Source: an uncultured Flavobacteriaceae bacterium (lineage in GTDB: Bacteria > Bacteroidota > Bacteroidia > Flavobacteriales > Flavobacteriaceae). From it: a stretch of DNA of 64,000 nucleotides. A program made the position numbers and the translations under genes. The notes under the pieces are model-generated. The model was not told the origin of the DNA, made no database searches, and saw only the letters and a program-made list of their open reading frames with translations. How positions within the stretch are numbered: the first letter of the stretch is position 1; each line of letters begins with the position of its first letter. Positions 14,963 to 42,438 of this stretch are shown here, one piece after another. The stretch spans positions 1 through 64,000 of the forward strand of contig CASIAE010000007.1 of assembly GCA_949372605.1 (NCBI GenBank), in the 5' to 3' direction.

Positions 14963-14983
14963 TTAATAAAATAAATAAAGGTT

Positions 14984-19553: not shown

Positions 19554-20891
19554 ATGAAAATCACAAATCTATTATTAATACTTTTATTTCTTAATATAAC
19601 TTTTGTTGGTTGTGAAAATAAATACCCTTCAATAGAAATAAAAGCTAATGATTTTCACGATGCCCAAGACCAACTCACTTCGGTTATGGTGCATGATATC
19701 TTTTCTCCTCCTGTAGCCAGTCGGGTTTACGTCTATTCTAACATTGCTGCTCACGAAATATTGGCACAAGACAAACAGAATAATTATAAGAGCTTAAAGG
19801 GAATACTTAGAGATTTTAAAGGAATTTCAAAATCAAAAGATACACTTGTGAATCATAAGCTAGCAGCTCTAATTGCATTTTTGGAGGTTGGAAAAAGACT
19901 TATATTTTCCCAGCTAACAATTACTGAATATGAAGAGCAATTATTTTCTAATTGGGAAAAAACAAATCCGAAAGTCTATTTAGCTTCTAAGGTTTATGCA
20001 GAAAAAGTGTCAGATGAAATCAGTTTGTGGTATAAATCTGATAACTATAATGAATCAAGGACTTACCCAAAATTTACGATAGATTATGACAGCCCATCTC
20101 GTTGGCAACCCACCCCTCCAGATTATATGGACGGAATTGAGCCTCATTGGAGTAAAATCAGACCTTTTGTGATTGAAAGTGCTTTACAATTTCAACCAGA
20201 ACCGCCACCTGCTTTCTCAATGGATCCAGACTCTGAGTTTTACAAAGAACTTCACGAAGTTTACAAAATTGTAAAAGAAATTCAAAACAACGAGGACGAG
20301 GACGAGCGAAAGGAAATCGCAAAATTTTGGGATTGTAACCCCTATGTTTCAACCCATAAAGGACATGTGATGTTCGCTTTAAAAAAAATAAGTCCCGGAG
20401 CCCACTGGATTGGAATTACAAAGATTGTTTCCAGAAATTTAAATGCGGATGTTTATAAAACAGTAGCTGCTTACGCCAAAACTTCTGTTGCAATTGCAGA
20501 TGCATTCATCAGTTGTTGGGATGAAAAATACAGAAGTAATTTAATACGCCCAGAAACACTAATTAATCAGACAATTGACGAAAATTGGTATCCTGTTCTT
20601 CAAACGCCTCCTTTCCCTGAATACACAAGTGGTCACTCCGTAGTTTCGGGTGCAGCTTCGGTTGCTTTGACGGATTTTTTTGGAGATAATATTTCTTTTG
20701 AGGACGACACTGAATTGGTTTATGATCTTCCAATAAGAAGCTTTAAATCGTTCACTCATGCGGCTGAAGAAGCTGCAATTAGCAGGTTATACGGTGGGAT
20801 CCATTACAGAAAAGCGATAGTGGAAGGATTAAAACAAGGCAGGGAACTTGGAAATTTTATAAGTAAAAAATTAGCCATAGAATCCAATTAA
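19554..20891 (+). CDS. Vanadium-dependent haloperoxidase/PAP2-superfamily lipoprotein
   Basis: A 445-residue lipoprotein (signal ending NITFVGC) with the helical fold and residues of the vanadium haloperoxidase/acid phosphatase superfamily. The three signature regions are visible: K-x6-RP in EKYRSNLIRPE, a GH motif in FPEYTSGHS where the canonical motif is PSGH, and SR-x5-H in SRLYGGIH. The Asp that follows three residues after that His in chloroperoxidases is Ala here. These sites bind vanadate or phosphate in characterised members. Whether this one halogenates, dephosphorylates or does something else cannot be told. It is anchored on the periplasmic or outer side. Its stop overlaps the stop of the convergent serine hydrolase by TTAA. 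Confidence 0.8.
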   Translation: MKITNLLLILLFLNITFVGCENKYPSIEIKANDFHDAQDQLTSVMVHDIFSPPVASRVYVYSNIAAHEILAQDKQNNYKSLKGILRDFKGISKSKDTLVNHKLAALIAFLEVGKRLIFSQLTITEYEEQLFSNWEKTNPKVYLASKVYAEKVSDEISLWYKSDNYNESRTYPKFTIDYDSPSRWQPTPPDYMDGIEPHWSKIRPFVIESALQFQPEPPPAFSMDPDSEFYKELHEVYKIVKEIQNNEDEDERKEIAKFWDCNPYVSTHKGHVMFALKKISPGAHWIGITKIVSRNLNADVYKTVAAYAKTSVAIADAFISCWDEKYRSNLIRPETLINQTIDENWYPVLQTPPFPEYTSGHSVVSGAASVALTDFFGDNISFEDDTELVYDLPIRSFKSFTHAAEEAAISRLYGGIHYRKAIVEGLKQGRELGNFISKKLAIESN

Positions 20892-22144
20892 TTCTCAAGA
20901 AGGACATCTAATATTTTCCCTCTTATTTCAAGACTATAGATCGCTTTTTGTGATCTCGTTGGAAAAACACGATTAGAAAGGAAGATCATAAAACTATTGT
21001 GAGTCGGATTGATCCAAACAAATGTTCCTGTAAACCCACTGTGACCATAACTTTCAGGGGAACAAATTTCAGAGGGATAAGGCAAAGAGTCAGAGTCTAC
21101 GCTAGGTTTGTCAAAGCCCAATCCACGTCGGTTTTCAGATGCTGGATAAGCCCGTGAGTTAAACAATTCTATTGTCTCAGCTTTTAAATATTCCTTACCC
21201 TTATATGTTCCTTTATTCAAAAGCATTTGAAGGATTTTTGAAAGAGACATTGCATCAGAAAAAAGCCCTGCATTTCCAGAAATCCCACCCATAAGCCCTG
21301 CTGCTTCGTCATGTACCCATCCTTTTACAAGAGTTTTTCTAAACAAGGAATCTTTTTCAGTAGGAACGATTTCTTCCTGTTTAAATTTAAGACTTGGGTT
21401 GAAAGTAAGCCTCTTGGCTTCCATGGGCTGGTAGAAATGAGTATCTAAAAATGCATCAAAAGACAAACCACTCAGGTTTTTGACCAGTTCAGGCAACAAG
21501 AAAAACCATAAACCAGAATAGCGATATTTTCCAACATTTTCTACTGGAGTTTTTTTAATCCTTCGCATGATTTTCCTTTGGTAGTTTTTGAAAATATAGA
21601 GGGAATCACTTAATGCATATGGGTAGCGATTACTTTTTTTATTTGAAAGCGTTCTGGATTTAAACTCCCCATTTTTTCTAAAAACTGTATTTTGATGAGT
21701 TATGTAAGGCGACCATCCCGCTTGATGCGCCAGTACTTCTCTAAAAGTTGTGTTTTTTTTATTACTCCTTTTTGTAAGAGGCATATATTCAGACACCCTT
21801 TTATCCAAACCGATACCATACAATTCATAGAGTTTCATAAAAGCCAATGTGCTTCCAATGATTTTTGTAACAGAAGCCAAATCATACAAATCGTTTTTAC
21901 CTACAGGAATGATAGAGTCATAGGTATGAAACCCATAGGCTTTAAATAACTTTATGCGATCATCTTTAAAAAGCAAAACTTGTGCACCAGGAAAAGCTTT
22001 TTCTCGGACACCCATCTTAATGATCGAATCTACTTTTGCTCCAAGTAATTCTTCTGAGGAATTTTTTTGTGAATTTTGTCCATTTAAAAGTTGCGTAAAA
22101 ATCAAATTGAAAATTAAAAACGAAATTAAAATTGTTTTTTTCAT
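20888..22144 (-). CDS. Exported serine hydrolase, beta-lactamase/CubicO family
   Basis: A 418-residue protein with a Sec signal peptide (ending LLNGQ) and the penicillin-binding/beta-lactamase fold. The catalytic S-x-x-K is in DLASVTKIIGS (about residues 90-100), the Tyr motif in KYRYSGLWF, and the third motif region in YGHSGFTGTFVW. Members act as esterases, D-amino-acid amidases or peptidases, so the substrate is open. It is the last gene of the minus-strand catabolic set, 12 bases after the RidA lipoprotein gene. It may release an ester- or amide-linked group from the pathway substrate; that is inference. Confidence 0.85.
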   Translation of the reverse strand: MKKTILISFLIFNLIFTQLLNGQNSQKNSSEELLGAKVDSIIKMGVREKAFPGAQVLLFKDDRIKLFKAYGFHTYDSIIPVGKNDLYDLASVTKIIGSTLAFMKLYELYGIGLDKRVSEYMPLTKRSNKKNTTFREVLAHQAGWSPYITHQNTVFRKNGEFKSRTLSNKKSNRYPYALSDSLYIFKNYQRKIMRRIKKTPVENVGKYRYSGLWFFLLPELVKNLSGLSFDAFLDTHFYQPMEAKRLTFNPSLKFKQEEIVPTEKDSLFRKTLVKGWVHDEAAGLMGGISGNAGLFSDAMSLSKILQMLLNKGTYKGKEYLKAETIELFNSRAYPASENRRGLGFDKPSVDSDSLPYPSEICSPESYGHSGFTGTFVWINPTHNSFMIFLSNRVFPTRSQKAIYSLEIRGKILDVLLEN

Positions 22145-22156
22145 GTTTAAAACAAT

Positions 22157-22723
22157 TTATTCTACCTCAACAATCATTTCTATTTCTACAGCAATATTAA
22201 AAGGAAGCGAAGCCATTCCAACTGCTGCACGAGCGTGTTTTCCTCGGTCTCCAAAGACTTCAACCATCAAATCCGAATAACCATTAATAACTTTTGGATG
22301 GTCATTAAAATCAGAGGAGGCATTAACCATCCCTAGGACTTTGACAATTCTCTTGACCTTACTTAAGTCACCTATGGCGGATTTTAAAATAGCAATTTGA
22401 TTGATTCCAGTTAGTCGCGCAGCTTCATAACCCTCTTCAATGGTTAGGTTCTCCCCTAATTTTCCGGTTATGAATTTACCGTCACTTTTTAATGGACCGT
22501 TGCCCGATAGATAAAGAAGGTTGTCCACTTTTACAGCATTTACAAAATTTGCAACAGGAGCAGCCGGACTTGGCAAATTAATGCCAAGCTCTTTTAATCT
22601 TCCGTCTGGATTAAAAACCTTTTTCGCTTCAAAATTAGAAGGCGTCTCTTTTTGAACAGGATTGCTACACGACAATAGAATTAAATTGAAAAATAGAAAC
22701 CCAAAAATTAATTTTTTATTCAT
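22157..22723 (-). CDS. RidA-family imine/enamine deaminase, lipoprotein form
   Basis: RidA proteins hydrolyse reactive 2-imino acids made by PLP enzymes into 2-oxoacids and ammonia. The 188-residue protein starts MNKKLIFGFLFFNLILLSC, a lipoprotein signal. The Rid domain fills residues 50-188. The segment HARAAVGMASLPFNIAVEIE keeps the Arg that binds the substrate carboxylate and the Glu near the active site. The longer open frame beginning at 22771 overlaps the upstream gene and lacks a signal, so the start at 22723 is used, four bases after the SelA-like gene's stop. A periplasmic Rid protein is unusual, because characterised ones are cytosolic or mitochondrial. Its place next to a PLP enzyme suggests that it clears that enzyme's imine product. 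Confidence 0.85.
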   Translation of the reverse strand: MNKKLIFGFLFFNLILLSCSNPVQKETPSNFEAKKVFNPDGRLKELGINLPSPAAPVANFVNAVKVDNLLYLSGNGPLKSDGKFITGKLGENLTIEEGYEAARLTGINQIAILKSAIGDLSKVKRIVKVLGMVNASSDFNDHPKVINGYSDLMVEVFGDRGKHARAAVGMASLPFNIAVEIEMIVEVE

Positions 22724-22727
22724 AATT

Positions 22728-23945
22728 CTAAGTTGCTGAAGAAAGGATTTCACTGACTCTTTTCGCAACAATGCGTTCTTGTCCGGGAACCATCATCCAA
22801 GTGGTAATTCCAACGGTACTGTTATCTCCAACAGTTTGGATCGAAGGGTGTCCGTCTTTTAGTTGATCACGAACGTCACTTGGTGTTATTTTAACCAAAC
22901 TTTGATCCCATCGAATTCTTAAACTTGGAACATGGTTGGCATATTTAGGAACATGAACCTCAGTTTCCACTCCTTTAATTTCCAATGCCCTATCACTAAT
23001 TAATTTTATTTGAGCTTCCCACATTGCCCATTCGGCTTTATGATCTTTTTGCAAATACAATTCAAGAGCAGCAAGCATGCCAAGGACTTCTTCCTTATTC
23101 ACTTTCATCCCTCTTCCAATGGTTTCACCTCTGGGGGGGGTGTGCATTCTGGCAGCTTCAATATATTTTCTTTTTCCTAAAAGTAAACCAGCACTTTGTG
23201 GCCCACGAATTCCTTTTCCTCCTGAAAAGGAAACCAAATCAAATCCCATTTTAGTAAATTTAAATAGGTTTTCAACAGGAGGCACATCGGCAGCACAATC
23301 TATAAAAGTGGGGATATTGTATTTTTTACCAAGCGCAATAAATTCTTCCCATTTGATTGCTCCTTGATCCGTATGCGCATTAAGAAACCAAAGCATAGCT
23401 GTATTTTTATTAATTGCTTTTTCTAAATCTCTAGTAGTTTTTACTTTAACTACTTTTGCACCGACGTTTGTAAGCGCTTGAGCATATCCAATTGTATGAG
23501 ATTCTTGAATAATCACTTCATTTTTCATGCCCTTTGTATTGGGAAGTTGTTTGACTTTTTCAGGATCCATTCCGGTAAGAATTCCCGCCATTCCAATACT
23601 CATGGCACCAAAACAACCAGAGGATACTGTAGCGTATTCACACTCTAATAATTCAGCAATTCTTTCTCCTACCTTGTCTTGTAAGTCATCGAGATTCACA
23701 TACTCAGTGGTGCCATAACTTATGGCGTCAGTGACCTCCTTGGGCATTAACGATCCTGTCATGGAAGTATAAGTTCCTGCGGCATTAATAAAGGTTCTTA
23801 GTCCTAATTCTTTAAAGAAATCTCTTCGAACACTTGAAACGATCGCTGCAGAACTCGGATTTGCTGATAGTGAATTAGCACCCAAAAAACTTCCTATAAA
23901 AGGAAGGGTTGCTAATGATTTTAATGCTTTTCTTCTGTTAATCAT
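22728..23945 (-). CDS. SelA/DgaE-like PLP-dependent lyase with twin-arginine signal
   Basis: A 405-residue fold-type I PLP enzyme related to SelA and to D-glucosaminate-6-phosphate ammonia-lyase (DgaE). The N-terminus is a twin-arginine signal (MINRRKALKSLATLPF, then a hydrophobic stretch to LSANP). The enzyme domain shows TFINAAGTYTSMTGSLMP, the typical opening of this family, and the PLP lysine in SFSGGKGIRGPQS (about residue 240). Known relatives without selenium function remove ammonia or water from amino-sugar acids or amino acids. A Tat signal fits an enzyme that must fold around PLP in the cytoplasm before export. Genes for RidA proteins lie on both sides, as expected if the product is an imine. 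The substrate is not known. Confidence 0.8.
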   Translation of the reverse strand: MINRRKALKSLATLPFIGSFLGANSLSANPSSAAIVSSVRRDFFKELGLRTFINAAGTYTSMTGSLMPKEVTDAISYGTTEYVNLDDLQDKVGERIAELLECEYATVSSGCFGAMSIGMAGILTGMDPEKVKQLPNTKGMKNEVIIQESHTIGYAQALTNVGAKVVKVKTTRDLEKAINKNTAMLWFLNAHTDQGAIKWEEFIALGKKYNIPTFIDCAADVPPVENLFKFTKMGFDLVSFSGGKGIRGPQSAGLLLGKRKYIEAARMHTPPRGETIGRGMKVNKEEVLGMLAALELYLQKDHKAEWAMWEAQIKLISDRALEIKGVETEVHVPKYANHVPSLRIRWDQSLVKITPSDVRDQLKDGHPSIQTVGDNSTVGITTWMMVPGQERIVAKRVSEILSSAT

Positions 23946-23961
23946 GATTATTGATTTTAAA

Positions 23962-24426
23962 TTAATCTACTGCTGCGATGCAGTCCATTTCTACTAATGA
24001 GTTTCCTGGAACACCGCCATAGGTTGCAACAGTTGTCCTTACAGGAGGGTTTTTTCCAAAACGACCTCTGAAAATTTCATTCATTCCTTTGTAGTCTGCC
24101 AAATCAGCAAGGTAAACATTCACTTTAAGCACCTGCTCCATCGAAGATCCATTACTCTCTAATCCCTTTTGAAGCTCTTTCAAAACATGGTCAGTATGTG
24201 ATTTGATGTCGCCATCGAAATGAGCACCTTTTCCTGCTATATAAAGAGTGTTTCCATGCCTTACTGCTCCAGAAAATAACGGAATGTCTTGATCACTAAC
24301 GACTTCGCCTAATACTTTCTTTTCAGTTTTAGGTGCAGCTGCTTTTACAGCTCCAACACCAAGAAGGGCTGCAAAACCCATTCCTATTTTCTTCAGTGAA
24401 GATCTTCTTTGTTCATTGTGTTTCAT
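23962..24426 (-). CDS. RidA-family imine/enamine deaminase with twin-arginine signal
   Basis: A 154-residue Rid-family protein preceded by a twin-arginine signal (NEQRRSSLKKIGMGFAALLG, cleaved near AVKAAAP). The Rid domain starts at about residue 45 with IPLFSGAVRHGNTLYIAGKG. The carboxylate-binding Arg is present in PPVRTTVATYGG, and the strand that normally carries the catalytic-region Glu reads LVEMDCIAAVD, with Asp at that place. It lies 17 bases upstream of the SelA-like gene and 29 bases after the RraA gene. It and the lipoprotein RidA are not close copies, so they may serve different imines or different sites in the envelope. Confidence 0.85.
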   Translation of the reverse strand: MKHNEQRRSSLKKIGMGFAALLGVGAVKAAAPKTEKKVLGEVVSDQDIPLFSGAVRHGNTLYIAGKGAHFDGDIKSHTDHVLKELQKGLESNGSSMEQVLKVNVYLADLADYKGMNEIFRGRFGKNPPVRTTVATYGGVPGNSLVEMDCIAAVD

Positions 24427-24454
24427 TTTTGTTTTTTTATTTATTAAACTGATA

Positions 24455-25384
24455 TTACCACATTCTTTTTTTAATCAACTCTTGTACTTGGTCTTTGGGA
24501 ACAGGAAGTTCATCCATGTGATCCCTAATCCATTTTGAAAAATCTTTTTCAATTTCATCTGACCATTTATTGTCTATTTGTCCTGGAGTATACTTCCCTT
24601 CTTTAAGACGCGAGATGCCAAATAAATCTCTAAGTCTAACTACTTCGGAGGTGATGACTACTTGCTCAGCCAGATGTGAGGGGATGAAAATTACGCCCTC
24701 TTTTTTGGCGAGTACTACATCTCCGGGCATGACACTTGCAGCTCCAATTCTGATGGGTTCATTGATGCTGTATAACATCACTTCGGTTAGAAACGAAGGG
24801 TGCCAACCTCTCACAAAGGCATTGAATCCTTCGATTTGAGAAAGCCCTTCCATGTCTCTGCTGGAAGCATCAAAGACGACACCCGTTTTAGTTTTTGCAT
24901 AAATTGAATTCCCTAAATTGTCTCCAATTAAAGTTCCATCCACTATTTTACCAAAACCATCGGCGACATAGACGTCGTTTTCTACTAAACGATCAATCGG
25001 CCATGAATTTGTATTTCCAATCTCTCCTTCTTTGAGTCCTTTTTCTTTGATTTGGTTTGCGATATCGGGACGATTGGGCATGTACTGAACGGTTAGTGCT
25101 CTTCCAACAATGGTGACATCATTGTGGAGTGGTTGCCATCCGCCATCAAACTGATTGTGATAGCCTTCATTCCTTAAAACTCCCCAAGCTTCTTCAATAC
25201 TAACTTTTTTCATCCGCATAAGCACATCAGTAGTAACCTTAGGCCTCCCATCTTCAAAACGTTCTCCTTCCCATTTGTGGGTTAAAAATTTCATTTCCTC
25301 GATACTCAAGTTTTGAGCAAATGCTAAAGAAAAATAAATTGAAGCGATAAAAACGAAAGAGAATTGAATTAGTTTTTTAAACAT
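24455..25384 (-). CDS. Exported RraA-family aldolase (4-hydroxy-2-oxoacid aldolase-like)
   Basis: A 309-residue protein with a Sec signal peptide (ending SLAFAQ) and an RraA/HMG-aldolase fold. Residues GVVFDASSRDMEGL contain the Arg-Asp pair that binds substrate and the divalent metal in class II pyruvate aldolases of this family. VMPGDVVLAKKEGVIFIPSHLA matches the conserved C-terminal strand pair. True RraA regulators of RNase E lack the Asp, so an enzyme is more likely than a regulator. Relatives cleave 4-hydroxy-2-oxoacids to pyruvate, and some decarboxylate oxaloacetate. It has an extra 60-residue N-terminal part compared with minimal RraA. It sits between the symporter and RidA genes and could supply the last cleavage step of the pathway. 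Confidence 0.82.
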   Translation of the reverse strand: MFKKLIQFSFVFIASIYFSLAFAQNLSIEEMKFLTHKWEGERFEDGRPKVTTDVLMRMKKVSIEEAWGVLRNEGYHNQFDGGWQPLHNDVTIVGRALTVQYMPNRPDIANQIKEKGLKEGEIGNTNSWPIDRLVENDVYVADGFGKIVDGTLIGDNLGNSIYAKTKTGVVFDASSRDMEGLSQIEGFNAFVRGWHPSFLTEVMLYSINEPIRIGAASVMPGDVVLAKKEGVIFIPSHLAEQVVITSEVVRLRDLFGISRLKEGKYTPGQIDNKWSDEIEKDFSKWIRDHMDELPVPKDQVQELIKKRMW

Positions 25385-25391
25385 GTTTTTT

Positions 25392-26483
25392 TTATTTTTT
25401 AGTTATTTTTTCTTTAGGGTCTTTGTCTCTCCACCAAGTGGCCAATGAGGAACCGGAAATATTCATCCAAGGTCCAAAAACGGCTGGGGCGAGTCCTACG
25501 GTTGATACTTTACCCATTTCCAGTGCAATTCCTGATGCCAACCCTCCGTTTTGCATCCCGACTTCTAGGGCGATGGTTCGGCAGTCTTGCTCTTTCATTT
25601 TTAGCAGACGACAACTCCAATAGCCAAGCAAATACCCCATCAAATTATGGATAATTGCAGCGACAACTAGCAACAGACCAATGGACAATAGAGAATCTCT
25701 TCCTGCAGCGGTTATAATCATTATTATTAAAGCGATTGCACTCATCGAAACAATTGGCATGGCTTTGTCTAACCATTTTGCTTTTCCGTGGAAAAAATGA
25801 TTGAAAAGCAATCCCAACACAACGGGAAGAATCACCATTTTAAAAATACTAAGCATCATTGCGTAAAAATCAATAGGGACAAAAGACCCAGCCAAATACC
25901 TCATCAATAGGGGCGTCATGAAAGGAGCGATTACAGTGGCCACTGCAGTTAAAGTCACCGAAAGCGCAACGTTTGCTTTGGCCAAATAGGCCATGACATT
26001 CGAAGCCAACCCGCTTGGAGAGGATCCTATTAACACAACTCCCGCAGCTATTTCTGGGGGAAAACTGAAAAGGGTTGCAAGTCCAAATCCTAATACAGGC
26101 ATAATGCTGAACTGACAGACCAAACCGATCAAAACTCCTTTGGGCATTTTAATAACACCGTAAAAATCATTAAAACTCATGGCTGTTCCCATGCCAAACA
26201 TTATTATTTGAAGTAGTGGAACAATGAGTTTTTTAAATTGAAAATCACCAATTTGAACTAAGGATTCAGGATAGTACATCGAAAGACTAACAGCAGCAAA
26301 AATTAAAACTGTAAATGAAAATCCCTTCCATTTTTTTGTACTTCTCATCCCCAATGCCAAAAGTAATAATGAGAGAATCAAGAAGGGTCCAGCAGTTTCG
26401 GTTTTCCCATTTAAAATCAAAATTAGAGTCACCAAAAACGATGCGCCTGACAGTGTAAATAAATATTTAAAAAGTTGTTTCAT
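25392..26483 (-). CDS. Bile acid:sodium symporter (BASS) family transporter
   Basis: A 363-residue integral membrane protein with about ten to eleven hydrophobic segments. An N-terminal two-helix extension precedes the BASS domain, which begins near QIIMFGMGTAMSFNDFYG. Family features include GSSPSGLASNVMAYLAKANVALSV (shortened here as GSSPSGLASN), ALSVTLTAVATVIAPFMTPL and EVGMQNGGLASGIAL, regions that form the sodium and substrate sites. Characterised BASS proteins carry bile acids, pyruvate, pantoate or other organic acids. It is in the middle of the catabolic set, overlapping the amidohydrolase stop by one base, and is its only obvious inner-membrane transporter. I infer uptake of a 2-oxoacid such as pyruvate. 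Confidence 0.88.
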   Translation of the reverse strand: MKQLFKYLFTLSGASFLVTLILILNGKTETAGPFLILSLLLLALGMRSTKKWKGFSFTVLIFAAVSLSMYYPESLVQIGDFQFKKLIVPLLQIIMFGMGTAMSFNDFYGVIKMPKGVLIGLVCQFSIMPVLGFGLATLFSFPPEIAAGVVLIGSSPSGLASNVMAYLAKANVALSVTLTAVATVIAPFMTPLLMRYLAGSFVPIDFYAMMLSIFKMVILPVVLGLLFNHFFHGKAKWLDKAMPIVSMSAIALIIMIITAAGRDSLLSIGLLLVVAAIIHNLMGYLLGYWSCRLLKMKEQDCRTIALEVGMQNGGLASGIALEMGKVSTVGLAPAVFGPWMNISGSSLATWWRDKDPKEKITKK

Positions 26484-27727
26484 TATTGCTTCCAGCTTTC
26501 GCTTGCTAAGCCGTTAAGGTCATAAACGACGTTGCCTTCTCTCAGGGTAAGTTCACATTCTAATTTTTGATTTCCTTTCATTCTCTTTCCTTGTGTATCA
26601 ATAAATCCGAAATCTCCCTCTCTGAGATTTAAAAGTGTTACATCAGCCACCGCACCGACAGACAAATGTCCTAAGTCTGTTCTCTTGATGTATGTAGCTG
26701 GATCCCATGTGGTAATTTGAATCACTTCTTGAGTGGAAAGCCCCATGTTTATGAATTTGGACATAATATTAACAATGTCTTTCATTCCGCCATTCATGCT
26801 TCCCGTATGAAGATCTGTACTTATAGAATTTGGTTTTAAACCTTGTTTAACGGCGGGTATGGCCTGCTCAAAAAGAAAACTTCCACCACCATGACCAACG
26901 TCAAAAACAATTCCTTTTTTTTGTGCTTCAAAAACATAATCCCTCACTTTTCCATTTTCATCTACAATCGGAGTTCTTCCATTCACATGGGCGTAAGCAT
27001 GAGTGAAAATATCACCAGGCCTTAATTTCTCTAATAATAATTTTTTTAGGGGTAGCTCTGGTTCGCTTCCTCCAAAATCAATTATTACAGGAAGACCCGC
27101 AAGTTCTCCAGCTTCAACAACTCTGTCAGTTGGTGTCCAGTCAAAACCATGATAATGTGCCAATTTAAACCCAACAATGTGTTGAGGGTACTGCCGCGCA
27201 ACCATGGCAGCAAGCTTAGGATCCATATCCAAAATATTTTGTTCAAAAGGCCCACCGCTCATTCCTGCTCCAACAATATTGAGAAAGGATAAAACTCTGG
27301 TTTTTGATCGATCAATTACCTGTTCTTTAAAAGTTTTAAAGTTACGCCAACCTGCATCTCCACAATCAACAAGGGTGGTTACTCCAACTCTAAAAGTAAA
27401 CCCGTCAGGGGGCAAGGAAGCAAAACTGTTGCTTAAATACCTATCGGGATTAGTCCCGTGGAAATTATGACTGTGAATGTCGATCAGTCCCGGACTTACC
27501 ACAAGGCCTTTGGCATCAATAACTTTTTTAGCAAGTTTGGCAGAAATGTTTTTTTCTACAACGGCTATTTTTCCTTGACTTATGGCCACATCCATAACTT
27601 GGTCAATGTTGTTTTTTGAATCAATCAAATGTCCATTTTTTATCAACAAATCATAGGATTGCCCTTTTAATATTAAACTAAAAAGTAAGATTGGGGTGAT
27701 TAATAAAATGACTTTAACTTTTTTCAT
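26483..27727 (-). CDS. Exported amidohydrolase/deacetylase (COG3964 type)
   Basis: A 414-residue metal-dependent hydrolase with a Sec signal (ending SLILKGQ). The amidohydrolase barrel shows DIHSHNFHG (metal HxH), VGFKLAHYHG (Lys and His), IFTHAYAH, FDVGHGGG and the final metal Asp in SISTDLHTGS. The end has the small beta-sandwich common in dihydroorotase-like enzymes (VGAVADVTLLNL). This matches the COG3964 group; studied members hydrolyse acetylated substrates such as N-acetyl amino acids, and genes for SelA-like PLP enzymes are frequent neighbours. Here a SelA-like gene is four genes downstream. I infer deacetylation of the substrate before ammonia removal. Confidence 0.85.
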   Translation of the reverse strand: MKKVKVILLITPILLFSLILKGQSYDLLIKNGHLIDSKNNIDQVMDVAISQGKIAVVEKNISAKLAKKVIDAKGLVVSPGLIDIHSHNFHGTNPDRYLSNSFASLPPDGFTFRVGVTTLVDCGDAGWRNFKTFKEQVIDRSKTRVLSFLNIVGAGMSGGPFEQNILDMDPKLAAMVARQYPQHIVGFKLAHYHGFDWTPTDRVVEAGELAGLPVIIDFGGSEPELPLKKLLLEKLRPGDIFTHAYAHVNGRTPIVDENGKVRDYVFEAQKKGIVFDVGHGGGSFLFEQAIPAVKQGLKPNSISTDLHTGSMNGGMKDIVNIMSKFINMGLSTQEVIQITTWDPATYIKRTDLGHLSVGAVADVTLLNLREGDFGFIDTQGKRMKGNQKLECELTLREGNVVYDLNGLASESWKQ

Positions 27728-27746
27728 AATGATGCTTTTTACAGTG

Positions 27747-29489
27747 CTAATTTTTTTCGGAATTTGTATTTTCTTTTCTAATTTTTTCGACTTCTTCTGC
27801 AGTCACATTGCTTGAATCATTCCCGAAATTTGTTCTAATATAGGATAAAACGTCTGCAATTTGATCATCACTTAAAAAAGAATGTTGAGGCATTAGCCCA
27901 TCATAGGTCTCTCCATTGACTTCAATTGCGCCTTCCATTCCATTTAAAATTATCTTAACCAATCGTTCTTTATCACCGGTGACCCAGTCAGTACCTCCTA
28001 GTGGAGGAAACCTTCCAGAAGTCCCCATTCCGTTGCTTTGGTGGCATGCTATGCAGTATTGATTGTATGTTTTTTGTCCTATTTTTGAATCTTCTGGCTC
28101 AATTCGATCTTTTACGATATCTGGAGTTCGGATGTGACTCATAGACTTTCTTTCTTCCATTGCGACTAACTCTTTTTCGCCAAAATTTTCTCGATCACCC
28201 TTAAATTGAACCCTCCAAATTTTACCTTTTTCAGTTTCAGACAAATACATTGTTCCATCTGGAGCGAAAGCAATTCCCATGGGACGATACATTGCATCAC
28301 GAGTATTAACAATGGGGTCGATCTGAGCAAATCCGTCTGCAAAAATTTCATATTCACCAGAAGGGTTTCCATCTTTAAAAGGAACAAATCCAATAAAATA
28401 ACTCGATTGAGGGTAGGGAGCACGATTTGTAGAACCATGAAATCCAATAAATGCTCCGTTTTTATATCTTTCGGGAAAAGCATCTCCCTCGTAAAAAACC
28501 AAGTCGTTAGGCGCCCAATGCCCAGGAAACCCGATAACAGGATCTTTGTAATCAGCACAGCGACCAATAATGTTTCCATCTCCTCCATATTCGGGGGCCA
28601 ACACTTTTTTTCCTTGCATTTGATCGTAATAGCAATAAGGCCACCCGAAGTGATCCCCTTTTTCAATTTTTACAAATTCTTCGGAAGGAAGTAATGCGCT
28701 TTCCCATTGACTGAAATGATTGGGCCACAGTCGTGTTAGATCATCCCTGCCATGAACAACCGAATAAAGGTGATTGTCGTGATTGTTCCAATCTAGAGCA
28801 ACGATACTTCTTAAGCCACTTGCGTATTTCTCCCCATCATGTTGCGTTTGTCCAATTTTTTCAGCATCAAAACGCCAAATACCCCCGTGGTCTTTAAGTA
28901 ATGGACAAGGGTCTTGACCAGGAGCCATTGGGGTTCTTTTTGGATTTTGACAAGCATTGTTTGGCGCTCCAAAAGGAACATAAATATGCCCATCATTGTC
29001 AAATGCAATTGGCTTACCAATGTGTTCGTGAGAGCCATGGGCATGATCATCATGCACGATGATCTCAGCATCCCCAGTAGGAACAAGGTTATCTGGATCT
29101 AACTTATATCTATAAACAGTTAGTTGTGAACTAAAATAAAGATAGCCTTTGTAAATTCTAGCACCAGTAGAGTAACTCCCTCTTTGGGGTATGTGATAAC
29201 TGCCAAACTTTACCAAAGAATCAACGACCCCGTCTTTGTCAGCATCTCTAATCGCAGCGAGAACTCCCGCTTCACTCGACCTTTTGAATTTGACATACAA
29301 ATCACCGTTATCGTTAACGGTCATGTGTCTGACTGTTTCTGCTATGCTGTCAACATAAACGGTCGAAACAAATCCCTCTGGAAGAAAGAGCTCTCCCTTA
29401 TCACTGGTTTTCTGACAACCGATTAAAGTTGTAAATAATACAACAAGAATTATCCAATTTGTTTTATAAAAACTCACGCTCATCTTCAT
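27747..29489 (-). CDS. PQQ-dependent sugar dehydrogenase fused to cytochrome c, lipoprotein
   Basis: A 580-residue lipoprotein (signal ending TTLIGC) with two parts. Residues 30-460 form a six-bladed propeller like soluble PQQ sugar or sorbosone dehydrogenases (FVSTVYVDSIAETVRHMTV, GKPIAFDNDGHIYVPFG, GDHFGWPYCYYD, RPMGIAFAPDGTMYLSE). Residues 470-565 are a monoheme cytochrome c with CIACH and a distal Met candidate in MPQHSF. Such enzymes oxidise aldoses at C1 to lactones and pass electrons to the attached heme. No PQQ synthesis genes are in the window, and PQQ use is inferred from the fold. It follows the CBM9-like gene and may feed electrons to the cytochrome chain encoded at 5.6-16.8 kb. 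Confidence 0.85.
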   Translation of the reverse strand: MKMSVSFYKTNWIILVVLFTTLIGCQKTSDKGELFLPEGFVSTVYVDSIAETVRHMTVNDNGDLYVKFKRSSEAGVLAAIRDADKDGVVDSLVKFGSYHIPQRGSYSTGARIYKGYLYFSSQLTVYRYKLDPDNLVPTGDAEIIVHDDHAHGSHEHIGKPIAFDNDGHIYVPFGAPNNACQNPKRTPMAPGQDPCPLLKDHGGIWRFDAEKIGQTQHDGEKYASGLRSIVALDWNNHDNHLYSVVHGRDDLTRLWPNHFSQWESALLPSEEFVKIEKGDHFGWPYCYYDQMQGKKVLAPEYGGDGNIIGRCADYKDPVIGFPGHWAPNDLVFYEGDAFPERYKNGAFIGFHGSTNRAPYPQSSYFIGFVPFKDGNPSGEYEIFADGFAQIDPIVNTRDAMYRPMGIAFAPDGTMYLSETEKGKIWRVQFKGDRENFGEKELVAMEERKSMSHIRTPDIVKDRIEPEDSKIGQKTYNQYCIACHQSNGMGTSGRFPPLGGTDWVTGDKERLVKIILNGMEGAIEVNGETYDGLMPQHSFLSDDQIADVLSYIRTNFGNDSSNVTAEEVEKIRKENTNSEKN

Positions 29490-29502
29490 TTATATAGTTT
29501 TT

Positions 29503-30225
29503 TTATTTGAAATTTAAAGTTCCAAAAAATTCGGGGCGATGAAAATCAGGATTTTCAGTTTTAACAGGATTCCAACTTAAATAATGTGGCTTAGTGGTGT
29601 CGTCACCACATTTGTAAAAGTTTGCATTTGCGATTAGGTTGGAAAAGATAAACCCTTCATTGTAGGTAAAAATAGAAGCGGGAATTACAACCACCATTTC
29701 CCATTCAAATTCTCCCGATTTTTCTTCAAAAGGTTGGTCTCCTAATGTTGACCAGGTTTTGATTTCTTTGATTATTTTTTCTTTAGAGATAAAAGTTCGA
29801 GTGCTACGAGCTGGACCATATGCCAAATGAGTCGTTCCGATACAATTAAACTCAAAATTATAATAGTTGCCATCTCTCATAGGGTCAATAAAAAACTCCA
29901 CACAACTATCGCGGTGGGTGGCGCTATTGGGTTCAGATCGTTTGGCCAAAGGATGATTTTCTTTAACATAAAACTTAATGAACAACAAACTATCATCATG
30001 TGCAATTCTAAAACCTACTTGAGGTTTGTAGGGGAACTTGTCCCATTCGAGCAAATTGATAGTGTTTAGTGCGGTCTTTTTTTCTATAGCATTTGAAATG
30101 CTTTCAAAGCTTAAAGTGTCATTTACGGCAACCTTAGAAACCTCAAGTGCTTTTATTTTTAAATTCATATTTGAACAACCAATAAGAAAAATAGAAATAG
30201 TTACGGTTAAAAATTTTGATTTCAT
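29503..30225 (-). CDS. CBM9-like carbohydrate-binding lipoprotein
   Basis: A 240-residue lipoprotein (signal ending FLIGC). The remaining sequence matches the carbohydrate-binding family 9-like/DOMON-type beta-sandwich: FRIAHDDSLLFIKFYVKE, CVEFFIDPMRDGNYYNFEFN, WEMVVVIPASIF and, near the end, LSWNPVKTENPDFHRPEFFG. That tail is characteristic of the stand-alone Bacteroidota proteins of this group. CBM9 modules bind reducing ends of sugars. It is the first gene of the minus-strand set and is divergent from the SMP-30 gene, with only 50 bases between start codons. It supports the view that the locus handles a carbohydrate or sugar acid. Confidence 0.82.
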   Translation of the reverse strand: MKSKFLTVTISIFLIGCSNMNLKIKALEVSKVAVNDTLSFESISNAIEKKTALNTINLLEWDKFPYKPQVGFRIAHDDSLLFIKFYVKENHPLAKRSEPNSATHRDSCVEFFIDPMRDGNYYNFEFNCIGTTHLAYGPARSTRTFISKEKIIKEIKTWSTLGDQPFEEKSGEFEWEMVVVIPASIFTYNEGFIFSNLIANANFYKCGDDTTKPHYLSWNPVKTENPDFHRPEFFGTLNFK

Positions 30226-30275
30226 ATCTTGATAAAACTAATTTATTTTTTTAACATTTAAATAATTTTCAAGCA

Positions 30276-31172
30276 ATGAAAAATAATATATTTAAATTTT
30301 TGGTCGGTTTAATGTTGATTTCAACCTTTTCTTGTACTGATTCTGAAGTGCTGTATCAACCGATTGATTTTGTTTTTGTAGGTGAATATACCCAGGGTCT
30401 TGAGGGGCCAGCAGTTGATGAGAACGGTAATTTATATTTTGTCAATCCAACTCATTCTGGGTCAATTGGAAGAATAGATGATAAAGGAAGATTCGATTTA
30501 TTCATTGAGCATTTACCGAAAGGAAGCACTGCAAATGGAATTAGATTTGGCGAAGATCAAGAAATGTTTTTAGCAGACTATTCAGGACACAACGTTTTAA
30601 GAGTTGATCTAGAAACAAAAGTAGTAACTGTTTTTGCTCATGACTCTTTGCTAAACCAGCCGAATGATTTGGCGATTTGTTGTAATAATCGAATGTATGC
30701 TTCTGATCCAGATTGGAAAAATAGCACAGGAAATATATGGAAAGTTCGAAATGGCATTTTCGAATTATTAGACGGTAATATGGGGACGACCAATGGAATT
30801 GAAGTCAGTCCTGACGAAAAAACACTATACGTTAATGAAAGTGTTCAGAGAAAAGTTTGGGCATTCGACATTGACAGTCAAGGTAATATTTCAAATAAAA
30901 AGCTTTTTCATCAGTTTGAAGATTTTGGTATGGATGGCATGCGATGTGATCAAAATGGCAACCTTTATATAACACGTCATGGGAAAGGAACTGTCGTCAA
31001 GTTATCTCCAAAAGGAGCACTTCTCAAAGAAATTCAGCTCAAGGGTAAAAAACCTTCCAACATCGCCTTTGGAGGAAAAGATGGAAGAACAGCCTACATT
31101 ACTTTACAAGACAGGGGTTATCTTGAATCTTTTCGAGTAGAAGTTCCCGGAAGGGCTTTTAGTGCCGATTAA
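30276..31172 (+). CDS. SMP-30/gluconolactonase-like lipoprotein
   Basis: A 298-residue lipoprotein (signal ending STFSC) with the six-bladed SMP-30/gluconolactonase propeller. The metal-site residues of the family are present: Glu in LEGPAVDENGNLYF, Asn in LNQPNDLAI and NGIEVSPDEKTLYV, and Asp in GMDGMRCDQNGNLY. Family members open sugar lactones to aldonic acids in a calcium- or zinc-dependent way. It is the lone plus-strand gene of this block, starting back-to-back with the CBM9-like gene, and would act on the lactone made by the PQQ dehydrogenase. Its stop shares TTAA with the convergent DUF5107 gene. Confidence 0.87.
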   Translation: MKNNIFKFLVGLMLISTFSCTDSEVLYQPIDFVFVGEYTQGLEGPAVDENGNLYFVNPTHSGSIGRIDDKGRFDLFIEHLPKGSTANGIRFGEDQEMFLADYSGHNVLRVDLETKVVTVFAHDSLLNQPNDLAICCNNRMYASDPDWKNSTGNIWKVRNGIFELLDGNMGTTNGIEVSPDEKTLYVNESVQRKVWAFDIDSQGNISNKKLFHQFEDFGMDGMRCDQNGNLYITRHGKGTVVKLSPKGALLKEIQLKGKKPSNIAFGGKDGRTAYITLQDRGYLESFRVEVPGRAFSAD

Positions 31173-34100
31173 TATTCAAAGAAAGAGACAATATCTTTAA
31201 TGAAAGTTTTATTCCATTTTAGATTTTTGTTTTCAAAATAAAACTTTATTAATTCTTTGGTTACCGGATGATTTCCATTTTTGGATTCGATCAACTGTTC
31301 AATAAAATTCATTGCAGACTCTTTTCCTTCTATTTCCTGCAATGCATAAATCCCCAATAAATGTTGCTTAGATAGTTTGAACAACTGTTTTTTAGAATAT
31401 TCAGCAATTTTTATAAGTTCTGATTTTGCAAAAGCATCTTTATTTTGATCAATATAGGTAAACGCCATAAGGAAACGCTGAATTCTTTCTTCAGGATCGA
31501 ATGGTTTTCCAGCGCCTAAATGTTCAGGCCAAAGCAATGATTCTTTGAGTCTATCTAATGCTTTTCCAGGCTTATTACTCATTAAATTTTGTGATGTGGA
31601 CCCAATATAAGCTTTGGTGTAGATTTTTCTCCCTTCGGTTGAATGCTCGTAAGGTAAAATCTTTAAGTTTTTGAGAAGGTCAATGCTTTTTTCAAATTTT
31701 CCAGAGGCATTGAAGATCTTGGCTAAAAGCATTCCAGCAAAATAATTCTCTATATCACTTTTAAACGTTCGGCTGATTATTTTTTCGGCTTCAGCAAAAT
31801 CTCCTTTACTATATCGATCCTCTGCCAAGGAGTAAGCATACCTCCAGTTTTTAGGCTCTTTAGCAAAGGCATTTTCTAAATCATTAATATAAGAACTTAT
31901 TTTTTGCTCCTTAAAAAAGGTTCCTCTAATGTAATAAAACAGAGGGTTGTCAGGAGCCTCCCCTAACTCTTTAAATACCTTAACGCCTTCCTGGATTTGA
32001 TTCAGACCAATTAGGTTCAATCCCAGAAGGTATTTTGATTTCCAGGAACTGTTGTTTTTTACAACCCAACGCATTAAATCAATAGTTTCATTTCTATAGG
32101 GAAAAATAAAAGCGATGGATTGATTCATGATGTTAGACAAAGAGGCAGTGTCATTAGACAGAAATGACATCCAAAGTTCATTTAGCATGTGCTTAGGCCC
32201 AGTTTTTAGAACATTGATTGCTTCTGAGTCCATCCCTCGATTGTGATAGAAAAGCGCCAGCTCTAAAAAAGTTTGATGGGGAAACTCAGAACGGTGGGAG
32301 TTGTTCACCACCTCAGCAGAATTTTTTCCTAATAAATACCTTTCAAATGAAATCAGATGATGAAGCGGATCCAGCACTTCAAGTTCACTTAAGGTACTCA
32401 TAGCGTTTTCAGATTCTCCGAGTTTTCTCTGGATGATTGCTTTTTGAGCAAGTGCATTGACATTGTCTTGATTGTATCTGAGAGCAATTTTATTGTAATG
32501 CATGGCATCCATAAAGCTTTGTTCTACAAGTAAGATCTGAGCCAGTATTGCATTTGAGGCAGAGCGATATTTTATTGATCTTGCAGCCCAGCCCAAATGT
32601 TCTTTTGCATTAAGCAAATCGTTATTAGCAAAAAAAGCTATCCCAGCAACATAGTTAAGACCATTGTGATAGGTGTCAACTTGTAGTCCCTTCGAAGCCA
32701 TAGCAATGGCTTTTTCATACCTTCCATTTCTATGGTAGAGCATGGCCAGCTCTGTTCTGGCCTCTAAGTGAAGCGGATTGTCCTCAAGAACCTCAAGTAG
32801 TAACGACGTTGCAGTTGAGAAATCTCGGTAACGTTGCGCGTCTTTAGCATCCAAGAATTTTTTCTCAGAAGAATTGTTTTTGACTACTTCAGGAGCAGTT
32901 TTAAAATCTCTTTTGATAAGGTCTGGATTTGATTTATAGTTGAGTCTTAACGCCTTAACACTAATCGAATAATCACCCTTTTGTTTTTCAAAACCAAAGG
33001 AGTAAACTCCGTTTGGAACAGTGTTAAAACCTTCATCAGATATAGAGTTAGCATAGGATAATAATAATGTGGATTGACTTTCTTTAAATGCATTTATTTT
33101 AACAAAAATACTATCAGAGCTTTCTTCTATGTTCATTGCCGCCCACTCAGAAGCTTCTTTTAAACCTCCGATATCTTTGATTGGAAACCAAGCTTCGGTC
33201 CACTGATCAGAAAGGTGTGGCTCGAAGGTGGCCTGACTGATAGGGTTCTCCTCACCAGGAGAATATTGCACAAAAAGTCTTCCGGCTTGATACTCTATGT
33301 ATTGCCCGTCTTTATCTGTTAGTAGGTCCTCCCAAATCCCTCCTGCGCGGGAGAGGTTCCACAGCCATAGTTTTTGACCCGGTATTTCATCATACCTACC
33401 CCAGTGTCCAAATCCAATATTTGAATCTTTATAATAACCTCCAAAAAAATCATTGTATTCCCCTATTATGTGGTAAGACTTGCTAGGGCCAAAATGATTT
33501 TGATTGTAATGAGAGAGATTACGATTTTGTGGATCACGCGGCCAAGACTTTGCTTCGCCACCATGGGTTAAAAATTGATCTCCAGGAGTATAAAAGACAA
33601 GATCTTCCTCAGCCGCTGCTGCAGCCGTCATCCAATTGTAATAGGACTGCTCAACATCAGTGGGATTATACCACAAGGCTTTTGTTGTAAAAGCACTTTG
33701 ATTGGGAGGGACTGTAATTTTCACTCTCCATTGGGTTCTAGAAGGCAAGTCGATTCCTCCAACAGTGCATTCCATTGCTCCGTTTTCAAGTTCAGTTATT
33801 TTATAATCTACAGGAGTTGCTGTTCCAGGGTGATGACCAATAATACCAAAATTGAATTCTATACCACCAGAAACCCAAGGGCCCCTCATAGCAATATTTC
33901 TAAATTTTACTACGTCATTTTTATAGAGAAACTCATTTCCATTACTCTTGTCAATTGCCCCTAAAACTTTGCCGCCAACTTCTGGAAGAATGCTTACTTC
34001 AATCCATTGGTTTTCGATTTTAATGACTTTAAAAGGCTTTTCTTTTTTTTGAAAGTCATAACCTTGAAACTTATAATAAGGATAGATTTTAGAGTTAAAG

Positions 34101-34246
34101 GTAAATGAAGGCAGTGGATTGGGATCTCCAAAACTGTAGGTAGGAAGTGATTGAATGGTTTCTGTTATTTTGTTTTCTTGACTCATAACAAGGGTTTGAA
34201 ACATGTATGTGCCTAGAAACAAGAAAATTCTTAGATTATTTGACAT
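31169..34246 (-). CDS. Exported DUF5107 plus tetratricopeptide-repeat protein
   Basis: A 1025-residue protein with a signal peptide (ending TLVMSQ). Residues 45-350 form DUF5107, a beta-rich domain with the look of a galactose-mutarotase-like fold: VSILPEVGGKVLGAIDK, MRGPWVSGGIEFNFG, WYNPTDVEQSYYNWM. The rest, from about residue 460, is a long series of tetratricopeptide repeats (for example YRDFSTATSLLLEVLEDNP, LHLEARTELAMLYHRNGRYE). The biochemical role of DUF5107 is not established. Such proteins occur in Bacteroidota carbohydrate-use loci. Its gene is divergent from susC, and a 7-base inverted repeat lies just upstream of its start. It may bind or epimerise the sugar handled here. Confidence 0.8.
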   Translation of the reverse strand: MSNNLRIFLFLGTYMFQTLVMSQENKITETIQSLPTYSFGDPNPLPSFTFNSKIYPYYKFQGYDFQKKEKPFKVIKIENQWIEVSILPEVGGKVLGAIDKSNGNEFLYKNDVVKFRNIAMRGPWVSGGIEFNFGIIGHHPGTATPVDYKITELENGAMECTVGGIDLPSRTQWRVKITVPPNQSAFTTKALWYNPTDVEQSYYNWMTAAAAAEEDLVFYTPGDQFLTHGGEAKSWPRDPQNRNLSHYNQNHFGPSKSYHIIGEYNDFFGGYYKDSNIGFGHWGRYDEIPGQKLWLWNLSRAGGIWEDLLTDKDGQYIEYQAGRLFVQYSPGEENPISQATFEPHLSDQWTEAWFPIKDIGGLKEASEWAAMNIEESSDSIFVKINAFKESQSTLLLSYANSISDEGFNTVPNGVYSFGFEKQKGDYSISVKALRLNYKSNPDLIKRDFKTAPEVVKNNSSEKKFLDAKDAQRYRDFSTATSLLLEVLEDNPLHLEARTELAMLYHRNGRYEKAIAMASKGLQVDTYHNGLNYVAGIAFFANNDLLNAKEHLGWAARSIKYRSASNAILAQILLVEQSFMDAMHYNKIALRYNQDNVNALAQKAIIQRKLGESENAMSTLSELEVLDPLHHLISFERYLLGKNSAEVVNNSHRSEFPHQTFLELALFYHNRGMDSEAINVLKTGPKHMLNELWMSFLSNDTASLSNIMNQSIAFIFPYRNETIDLMRWVVKNNSSWKSKYLLGLNLIGLNQIQEGVKVFKELGEAPDNPLFYYIRGTFFKEQKISSYINDLENAFAKEPKNWRYAYSLAEDRYSKGDFAEAEKIISRTFKSDIENYFAGMLLAKIFNASGKFEKSIDLLKNLKILPYEHSTEGRKIYTKAYIGSTSQNLMSNKPGKALDRLKESLLWPEHLGAGKPFDPEERIQRFLMAFTYIDQNKDAFAKSELIKIAEYSKKQLFKLSKQHLLGIYALQEIEGKESAMNFIEQLIESKNGNHPVTKELIKFYFENKNLKWNKTFIKDIVSFFEY

Positions 34247-34266
34247 TGCTAGAGTTTTATTTTTTA

Positions 34267-34284
34267 TTACATAAATGTATGTAA
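34267..34284. promoter_or_regulatory. Inverted repeat, possible operator between DUF5107 and susC genes
   Basis: TTACATA-AATG-TATGTAA is a perfect 7-base inverted repeat 20 bases upstream of the DUF5107 start and about 120 bases upstream of the susC start. Size and symmetry suit a dimeric repressor or activator. It has no T tract, so it is not a terminator. No regulator gene lies next to it. Confidence 0.35.
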
Positions 34285-34403
34285 ATAATACCCAGAAATA
34301 AATTCAATCAAAACACACACGGCAATTAGTTTATTTTTCTTTAACATTTTTTTTAAGAAGTGTAGATAATTTTATTATTTTAGCATCTTAACTAAAATAT
34401 ATT

Positions 34404-37400: not shown

Positions 37401-37406
37401 TTTTAA
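34404..37406 (+). CDS. SusC/RagA-family TonB-linked outer-membrane transporter
   Basis: A 1000-residue TonB-dependent receptor for uptake of oligosaccharides or other large solutes. It has a signal peptide (ending GVIFAQ) and a carboxypeptidase-D-like regulatory domain (TVAGTVTDSDGVPLPGASIV). The TonB box region reads LSEVVVTSFGIKREEKTL. The plug has the SusC signature VIDGVPMVN and ILKGANASILYGSQGANGVV, and the C-terminal 22-strand barrel ends in RTIGMNLRLTF. The full length is at the normal size for the family. It is followed after nine bases by its SusD partner. Substrate class cannot be read from sequence, but the adjoining genes point to a sugar-derived compound. Confidence 0.95.
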   Translation: MKQKIKQTLMATCFLLSGVIFAQVKTVAGTVTDSDGVPLPGASIVLTETNEGSTTDFDGNYSISAQEGATVEFSYVGYESQQVVVGEGSTINVTLVQGNALSEVVVTSFGIKREEKTLAYSTQTVDSEQLTQARDISIANSLNGRAAGVEIRKSSSGAGGSTKIVLRGNKSLSGNSQPLIVIDGVPMVNNVGGQPGMWGGIDEGDGLSQVNPDDVESITILKGANASILYGSQGANGVVVITTKSGEEGDTKITFNSGITFESVIALPELQYDYGRAAGEDESWSPTKNAAAANGEFVDDFFQTGVNYVNSVSVSGGNKTTTAYFSYYNATSGGIMDNFGYKKNNLSFKQSTKFFNDKMTLSSNIILTEEQTDNRGPSGYYLNPLIGLYTFPRDGSWSSMKTYQTFNAATNVMDQNWVGNNHFQSNPYWLMNNQPKEDKVQRAIGSVNLAYQISEKLSLKARASYDFANKSYEQQHAAGSNQTNTGSNGRWDYKKFNDELFYSDAILSFNDNYGDFSVNAIAGASLQQTTFGSGVNVTTGSDGELFYANEFNFQNIPANIQVQSTLGSQIEKQAVFGNVVVGYKDAIFLDISGRNDYASTLAGTGNDSYFYPSVGASFVLSQLMELPSQISFLKLRASSASVGNEVPYNRISPTNTINASGGVVRNTQTPFTNLKPEMIETFEIGLDLRLFNNKLGLDVAYYDITSSDQFLSLAAPSGSGYTSYFVNAGKIVNNGIEVTITNSIIDTANFKWNSTLNITQNTNEIVEIHPDIANLGTGASEGFQSRFQKGGSIGDFYTKMFKRDAQGRIEMVDGTPLTTATDELGGNAEPDVSLGWANNFNIGENLSVGFIINAKFGGKVFSQTESMLDGNGVSLRSGQARDAGFVAVNGVQGGVAVSQADPKTWYQATGDRIGIGESYIYDRTNIRLSQMSIAYKLDPIKLGLPVDNATISVIGNNLFYSAVAPFDPELAMSTNRNSQGLDNFNLPSTRTIGMNLRLTF

Positions 37407-37415
37407 ATAAAAAAA

Positions 37416-38996: not shown

Positions 38997-39037
38997 ATCT
39001 TTATCTATATAAATTCAATAATTTATTTTGAATTACA

Positions 39038-39072: not shown

Positions 39073-39122
39073 AACTAAATTGTAACTGAAAAAATTATTA
39101 AAAAAACAACAGATTAAATTAA

Positions 39123-42431: not shown

Positions 42432-42438
42432 ATCGGTT

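Follow-up and report, generated by a model that had tools for sequence, protein, structure and literature searches.

A candidate extracytoplasmic oxidative pathway for N-acetylated hexosamines encoded in Flavobacteriaceae and other Bacteroidota

Two cytoplasmic systems are the closest described counterparts of the gene cluster considered here. The ong system of Pseudoalteromonas prydzensis deacetylates an N-acetyl-aldonate and deaminates it with a pyridoxal phosphate (PLP) enzyme to 2-keto-3-deoxygluconate (KDG); mutants deleted for a RidA-family gene no longer grow on the acid, and the route also depends on a kinase (PMC9537276). The dga system of Salmonella takes up its substrate through the phosphotransferase system (PTS), and in the cytoplasm the phosphorylated compound undergoes elimination to a 2-keto-3-deoxy acid, from which an aldolase yields pyruvate (PMC9529869). 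This report examines ten adjacent genes in a stretch of 64,000 nucleotides (the window; contig CASIAE010000007.1 of assembly GCA_949372605.1) from an uncultured marine Flavobacteriaceae bacterium. On balance, the likely role of these genes is the oxidative breakdown, outside the cytoplasm, of an N-acetylated hexosamine of the N-acetylglucosamine (GlcNAc) or N-acetylgalactosamine (GalNAc) type. Gene content, conservation, catalytic residues, export signals, co-occurrence, two predicted folds and neighbouring genes were computed; every reaction and substrate of the pathway, and the order of its steps, we infer.

Like ong, the cluster contains a RidA-family gene. The ong system is cytoplasmic and has an SSS importer and the kinase KdgK; here export is predicted, the carrier is of the BASS type and the operon has no kinase, none of the 25 window proteins scanned being a KDG kinase. 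The ong deacetylase is D-aminoacylase-like (PMC12017989) and its PLP enzyme is of fold type III, whereas the window encodes a COG3964-type hydrolase (AmiH) and a DGL/SelA-type PLP enzyme; thus, the two systems would share chemistry, not enzyme families. The PLP enzymes of dga and of the window belong to one wider family and, as proposed here, share elimination from a 2-amino-3-hydroxy sugar acid. Unlike the dga enzyme, the window's protein begins with a twin-arginine stretch and lacks the phosphate-site arginines; the same 25 proteins include no PTS gene. A literature search, with most subscription papers outside its reach, found ong and dga and no exported PLP/RidA amino-sugar pathway. An earlier annotation made from the letters alone (the sequence-only reading) knew of no such described pathway; cytoplasmic counterparts of the chemistry are known, and it is the exported version that seems new.

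The proposed route has six steps. An AA12-type dehydrogenase (GSDHc) would oxidise C1 of the sugar to the lactone and deliver electrons through its own cytochrome c to the respiratory chain. A lactonase of the SMP-30 type would open the lactone to the N-acetylhexosaminate, and AmiH would remove acetate. The DgaE-like PLP enzyme, exported by twin-arginine translocation (Tat), would then eliminate water from the unphosphorylated 2-amino-3-hydroxy acid, giving an enamine or imine that exported RidA proteins would hydrolyse to a 2-keto-3-deoxy sugar acid and ammonia. In the window's lineage, cleavage of this acid by an exported RraA-type protein would yield an aldehyde and pyruvate, and a BASS carrier would import the oxo acid; some relatives would instead import the 2-keto-3-deoxy acid itself and pass it to a kinase and an aldolase. 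The core of AmiH, PLP enzyme and RidA is the firmest part; the opening dehydrogenase step and the closing RraA step are less widely shared.

The sequence-only reading had suggested looking for the same gene set in other Bacteroidota. It is present there, and its co-occurrence is conserved. When 299 genomes of the family were searched separately with the PLP and AmiH proteins, the PLP protein had matches in 30, full-length in 24, and AmiH (E <= 1e-40) occurred in 24, exactly those with a full-length PLP protein. The chance of this overlap is about 6e-36 if genomes are independent, which they are not. Each of the 33 AmiH copies has a PLP gene no more than 2.7 kb away, and one of the 36 PLP places has no amidohydrolase within 10 kb. 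In 20 loci with close homologues (L031 to L050; tblastn), gene order is mostly that of the window; PLP and AmiH genes are present in all 20, GSDHc and Rid1 in 19, Rid2 in 18, the CBM9-like gene in 17, BASS and RraA in 13, and the SMP-30/SGL gene in five.

A scan of named genomes gave at least 552 places with a relative of the PLP enzyme. From these, 79 loci were retrieved, in Flavobacteriaceae, Cyclobacteriaceae, Saprospiraceae, Flammeovirgaceae, Chitinophaga, Dyadobacter, Larkinella, Spirosoma, Balneolaceae and Acidobacteria (six loci); gene presence was counted with tblastn, open reading frame (ORF) picking having missed the PLP gene in four of them and misnamed some neighbours. Among the 47 loci of at least 20 kb, AmiH is found in 46, a RidA gene in 44 (the window's operon carries two), GSDHc in 34, CBM9 in 21, BASS in 19, RraA in 18, and an SGL or seven-bladed lactonase in 14. 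In an even sample of the phylum that includes the window's own genome, 8 of 395 genomes have the PLP gene (E <= 1e-40); it is widespread yet uncommon. One locus (L053, 945-17163; G225:C68) packs four PLP, three AmiH and two Rid1 genes into 20 kb, perhaps a lineage-specific expansion for different amino-sugar isomers.

These counts bear on a rather unlikely alternative, in which the substrate arrives already oxidised, as N-acetyl-aldonates from attack on chitin or glycosaminoglycans by lytic polysaccharide monooxygenases (LPMOs) or oxidases; AmiH, PLP enzyme and RidA would then be the core, with dehydrogenase and lactonase as options for free sugars. The near-constant AmiH and RidA genes, set against the less frequent GSDHc and lactonases, would suit this, and the ong pathway begins at GlcNAc1A (PMC9537276). 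On the other hand, GSDHc adjoins AmiH in the window and is present in 19 of the 20 close-relative loci, and the neighbours scanned include no LPMO (whole genomes were not searched for one).

The location of the pathway outside the cytoplasm is read from predicted export signals. These were assigned with a simple and rough home-made N-terminal rule; among interior stretches used as controls, 8 of 118 from PLP and 16 of 82 from Rid1 also scored positive (duplicates included). Counts refer to distinct sequences, the two genome collections overlapping (L031 and L057 are the same contig), and incomplete rows were left out of residue and signal counts (PLP 1, Rid2 6, RraA 2, AmiH 3, GSDHc 9, CBM9 2). 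A twin-arginine stretch precedes a hydrophobic run in 109/109 PLP and 72/74 Rid1 relatives. For the other proteins, export-type starts (lipobox or Sec, with twin-arginine in four cases overall) are found in 36/36 Rid2, 38/39 RraA, 94/97 AmiH, 56/60 GSDHc, 28/33 CBM9 and 20/23 SGL relatives. TatC is present in 20 of the 21 carrier genomes. Amino-acid chemistry that depends on PLP and RidA normally takes place in the cytoplasm; the Tat route fits loading of the PLP cofactor before export. The sequence-only reading would have fallen with cytoplasmic enzymes, and the predicted export signals are conserved across relatives.

The PLP enzyme is related to the DgaE families yet scores below their cut-offs (TIGR01437, 200 bits against 385; NF047797, 165 against 600). 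Its top structural matches are 7lc0, 8t7j and SelA structures, not fold type III; 7lc0 is best by sequence (201 bits) and by predicted fold (TMt 0.87). Lys244, the PLP lysine, is kept in 112/112 distinct rows. In the dga lyase, docking placed the phosphate close to Arg301, Arg332 and Arg346, and the C3 proton comes from His163; an H163A mutant is still active, with accumulation of a transient intermediate that absorbs at 293 nm (PMC9529869). By sequence alignment, in which the histidine falls near a gap, the Arg301 position is Ser or Thr in 92 of the 112 rows (Arg in two), that of Arg346 is Trp in 86 (Arg in none), Arg332 has no counterpart, and the His163 position is Thr, Asn, Ser or Ala in 94. 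With these positions replaced, phosphate binding and the in-enzyme proton donor are read as lost.

There is some room for a different chemistry. The second-best structural relative is Cap15 (8t7j; TMt 0.86, 173 bits), an oxygen-dependent PLP enzyme. If the window's enzyme were likewise an oxidase or decarboxylase of a beta-hydroxy-alpha-amino acid, the product would not be a 2-keto-3-deoxy acid; the missing histidine would fit, while the first rank of 7lc0 in both sequence and fold, the RidA genes, and the DGOK and aldolase neighbours described below fit elimination and make this highly improbable. Under the elimination favoured here, exported RidA would take over the clean-up that a lost proton donor leaves undone. 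The RidA proteins each keep an arginine, Arg130 in 74/74 distinct Rid1 rows and Arg166 in 42/42 Rid2 rows. It is quite possible, if far from assured, that the cluster represents a widespread and so far undescribed amino-sugar route in which oxidation, deacetylation, PLP deamination and even C–C cleavage are exported, and in which a Tat-exported lyase without a proton-donor histidine hands its product to a dedicated Tat-exported RidA.

AmiH is the one protein of the ten to exceed an NCBIfam cut-off (NF006689, 437 bits against 371). His85, His87, Lys188, His243 and Asp305, presumably the metal-ligand positions, are kept in 97/97 distinct rows. Its best structure matches are 8je0 and 2ogj, and in family score and ligand positions it resembles COG3964 enzymes such as Atu3266 (2ogj); unlike these, it is predicted to be exported and always lies near a PLP gene in the family genomes searched. 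The OngB-type deacetylase PpOngB (9kb1) matches AmiH over residues 23-88 only (E 7.5e-4). Residue 279 varies among the 97 distinct relatives (His in 61, Tyr in 33, Phe in three), and these variants perhaps mark substrate classes.

The dehydrogenase part of GSDHc is predicted to adopt the AA12 propeller fold. The model (pLDDT 86.8) matches AA12 structures 6i1q, 6h7t, 6i1t and 6jt5 with Z scores of 35.7-36.5, other sugar dehydrogenases dependent on pyrroloquinoline quinone (PQQ) with 25.5-30.9, and all the rest with at most 22.8. The predicted fold is thus that of the AA12 PQQ-dependent pyranose dehydrogenases of Trichoderma and Coprinopsis; unlike them, GSDHc is a bacterial lipoprotein fused to cytochrome c, with about 21% identity to AA12 enzymes and a score of 18.2 bits with Pfam TrAA12, below the cut-off of 30.9. 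The haem motif CxxCH is kept in 67/68 distinct rows, and the cytochrome c domain is most like that of haem-copper nitrite reductases.

The RraA-like protein scores 51.6 bits with the aldolase equivalog TIGR02798, below its cut-off of 304.5. Aligned with 3noj, it keeps Arg176-Asp177, which we take to be the catalytic pair of HMG/CHA (RraA-type) aldolases, in 43/43 distinct rows. In 5 of the 79 loci, a TRAP transporter replaces or accompanies BASS. A DctPQM TRAP transporter adjoins Rid2 in L039-L043, L064 and L068-L071, with or without BASS, and a GguC/AraD1-type gene lies near the TRAP transporter in L040, L064 and L068.

Neighbouring genes in relatives offer clues to the product. In two Bacteroidetes metagenome-assembled genomes (MAGs; L125, L128) and one Chitinophagaceae MAG (L133), the PLP and AmiH genes are followed by three same-strand genes and a second PLP gene. 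The three are a DGOK kinase (identified in L128; 172.8 bits, cut-off 25), an eda-type aldolase of the 2-keto-3-deoxy-6-phosphogluconate (KDPG) type (L128; 175 bits, cut-off 156) and an MFS protein (L125), whose best NCBIfam match is a D-galactonate transporter (255 bits, below the cut-off of 395); each was identified on one member, and the other members were assigned by BLAST clustering. The same trio occurs in a fourth locus (G536), with DGOK 12.7 kb from the PLP gene and next to a gene that, judged by eye, resembles a PQQ dehydrogenase. Of the 395 genomes in the phylum sample, 17 have DGOK, among them three of the eight with the PLP gene (P 0.003, without correction for kinship); two of those three carry it on another contig. 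Because DGOK, a KDPG-type aldolase and a galactonate-type MFS protein adjoin PLP-AmiH, the product is read as a probable 2-keto-3-deoxy sugar acid, perhaps of the galacto type. KDPG-aldolase-family genes occur in all 21 carriers, so their mere presence is uninformative.

Other neighbours concern the substrate. A GH20 gene adjoins GSDHc in L094, a PIG-L gene adjoins AmiH in L040 (the same contig as L071) and, by BLAST, in L081, and L108 has a ROK kinase and a NagB-PIG-L fusion (Pfam; 14426-16387) about 4.5 kb from the PLP gene. Together with the DGOK set, these GH20, PIG-L, ROK and NagB-like genes suggest an N-acetylhexosamine. A GlcNAc-2-epimerase-family gene is present in L067 and, by clustering, in L062 and L063. 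A Pfam tally of 105 neighbouring proteins, nearly all taken from a list of 248, counts three sulfatases and two GH20 members (one of them identified, in L094) among the first 25 of 100 families listed; with few repeated families, it is weak on its own. A NagB match of canonical strength (E < 1e-60) is missing in 8 of the 21 carriers, the window's genome included, while an open frame of 634-684 amino acids matching NagB is present in all 21 (e.g. G000:C2:72809-73477); given this frame, replacement of the classical NagB route by the exported pathway is not claimed.

Amino acids rather than sugars could also be considered as substrates. One COG3964 enzyme reportedly has weak activity on N-acetyl-D-serine. 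The glucosaminate deaminase OngC also acts on D-serine and D-threonine (PMC9537276). Beta-hydroxylated D-amino acids (D-serine or D-threonine type), free or N-acylated, or related compounds, might then be degraded here, with the sugar-like genes serving another step. The DGOK and KDPG-type aldolase genes by PLP-AmiH in four loci, the AA12-like dehydrogenase, the lactonases and the GH20 gene of L094 speak for a sugar and make this very unlikely.

A number of points weigh against the N-acetylhexosamine pathway. Some relatives carry a kinase (DGOK) by these genes, and even this clue to the product is modest, DGOK standing at four loci only and the sample showing three of eight against 17 of 395. 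Fewer than half of the longer loci have RraA, and the same holds for BASS; cleavage and import are therefore not general steps. AmiH is missing from all six acidobacterial PLP loci (L112, L113, L116, L122, L130, L131); their PLP proteins are 51-58% identical to the window's, with RidA in two loci and a lactonase in one, and the PLP gene can therefore occur without AmiH, in another context. The sole TatC miss among the 21 carriers is the window's genome, which is 70% complete; TatC is present in a same-genus genome that is 99% complete and whose PLP protein is 96% identical to the window's. PqqE exceeded its cut-off in none of the 21 carriers, which would therefore need to scavenge PQQ unless GSDHc uses another cofactor; control genomes gave 0/14 too and provide no positive control. 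Characterised COG3964 enzymes are said to prefer O-acetyl (R)-hydroxy acids, a PIG-L gene next to AmiH would be unexpected if N-deacetylation were the role of AmiH, and Cap15 comes second to 7lc0 in fold. Export signals, co-occurrence and neighbours pointing to an N-acetylhexosamine and a 2-keto-3-deoxy acid nevertheless favour the pathway that the sequence-only reading had proposed. Its further claim that no kinase takes part stands for this operon and does not extend to all relatives, given DGOK in four loci.

Nine minus-strand genes form a tight operon (20888-30225; intergenic gaps of at most 28 bases), with the tenth gene divergent. Coordinates and strands of the ten ORFs are as first read, and searches with Pfam and NCBIfam profiles, from which the family calls derive, together with the N-terminal rule, bear out the families, catalytic residues and export signals. 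The features are collected in Table 1.

Table 1. Positions in the window of the cluster genes and of recurrent neighbours.
Feature	Coordinates	Strand	Remarks
Serine hydrolase, PBP4B-like	20888..22144	-	PF00144, beta-lactamase-type; Sec-type start
Rid2, lipoprotein RidA-like	22157..22723	-	PF14588 (YjgF_endoribonc)
PLP enzyme, DgaE/SelA-related	22728..23945	-	Twin-arginine start; proposed ammonia-lyase, unphosphorylated 2-amino-3-hydroxy sugar acid
Rid1, RidA protein	23962..24426	-	Twin-arginine start; proposed enamine/imine hydrolase for PLP product
RraA-like protein	24455..25384	-	Sec-type start; proposed aldolase, 4-hydroxy-2-oxo acid
BASS/PanS-like carrier	25392..26483	-	Proposed oxo-acid importer
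AmiH, COG3964-type amidohydrolase	26483..27727	-	Sec-type start; proposed N-deacetylase
GSDHc, lipoprotein, AA12-like sugar dehydrogenase-cytochrome c fusion	27747..29489	-	Pfam GSDH + cytochrome c
CBM9-like lipoprotein	29503..30225	-	Pfam CBM9_2
SMP-30/SGL-type lipoprotein, proposed lactonase	30276..31172	+	Divergent; Pfam SMP-30/SGL
DUF5107/TPR protein	31169..34246	-	Recurs in few relatives; membership uncertain
SusC (34404-37406) and SusD (37416-38996)	34404..38996	+	Possible outer-membrane uptake pair; membership uncertain
FG-GAP/ASPIC protein (39123-42431) and PhyH dioxygenase (42439-43167)	39123..43167	+	Recurrent neighbours; membership uncertain

The start of Rid2 is most likely the ATG at 22723, not the TTG at 22771. 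In other relatives, an exported alpha/beta esterase occupies the serine-hydrolase end of the operon. SusC, SusD, ASPIC and PhyH genes also stand beside the cluster in L033/L059 and L058, and part of the 31169-43167 set does so in L048/L077, L036/L065, L067, L073 and L089; because they recur in this way, these genes, including DUF5107/TPR, may belong to the unit as its uptake part. Elsewhere in the window, an ORF of 430 amino acids without a Pfam match (12584-13876) immediately precedes the genes for cytochrome oxidase subunits II and I. The host genome is incomplete (1.39 Mb), and its closest named relatives are Flavobacteriaceae MAGs.

If the pathway is as proposed, amino-sugar use in marine and soil Bacteroidota would have to be redrawn: acetate and ammonia would be set free outside the inner membrane, and the oxo acid alone would be imported. 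Functions would also be provided for recurrent gene sets often named selenocysteine synthase, dihydroorotase and ribonuclease regulator. In cultivable relatives, the DGOK-linked loci make the product directly testable.

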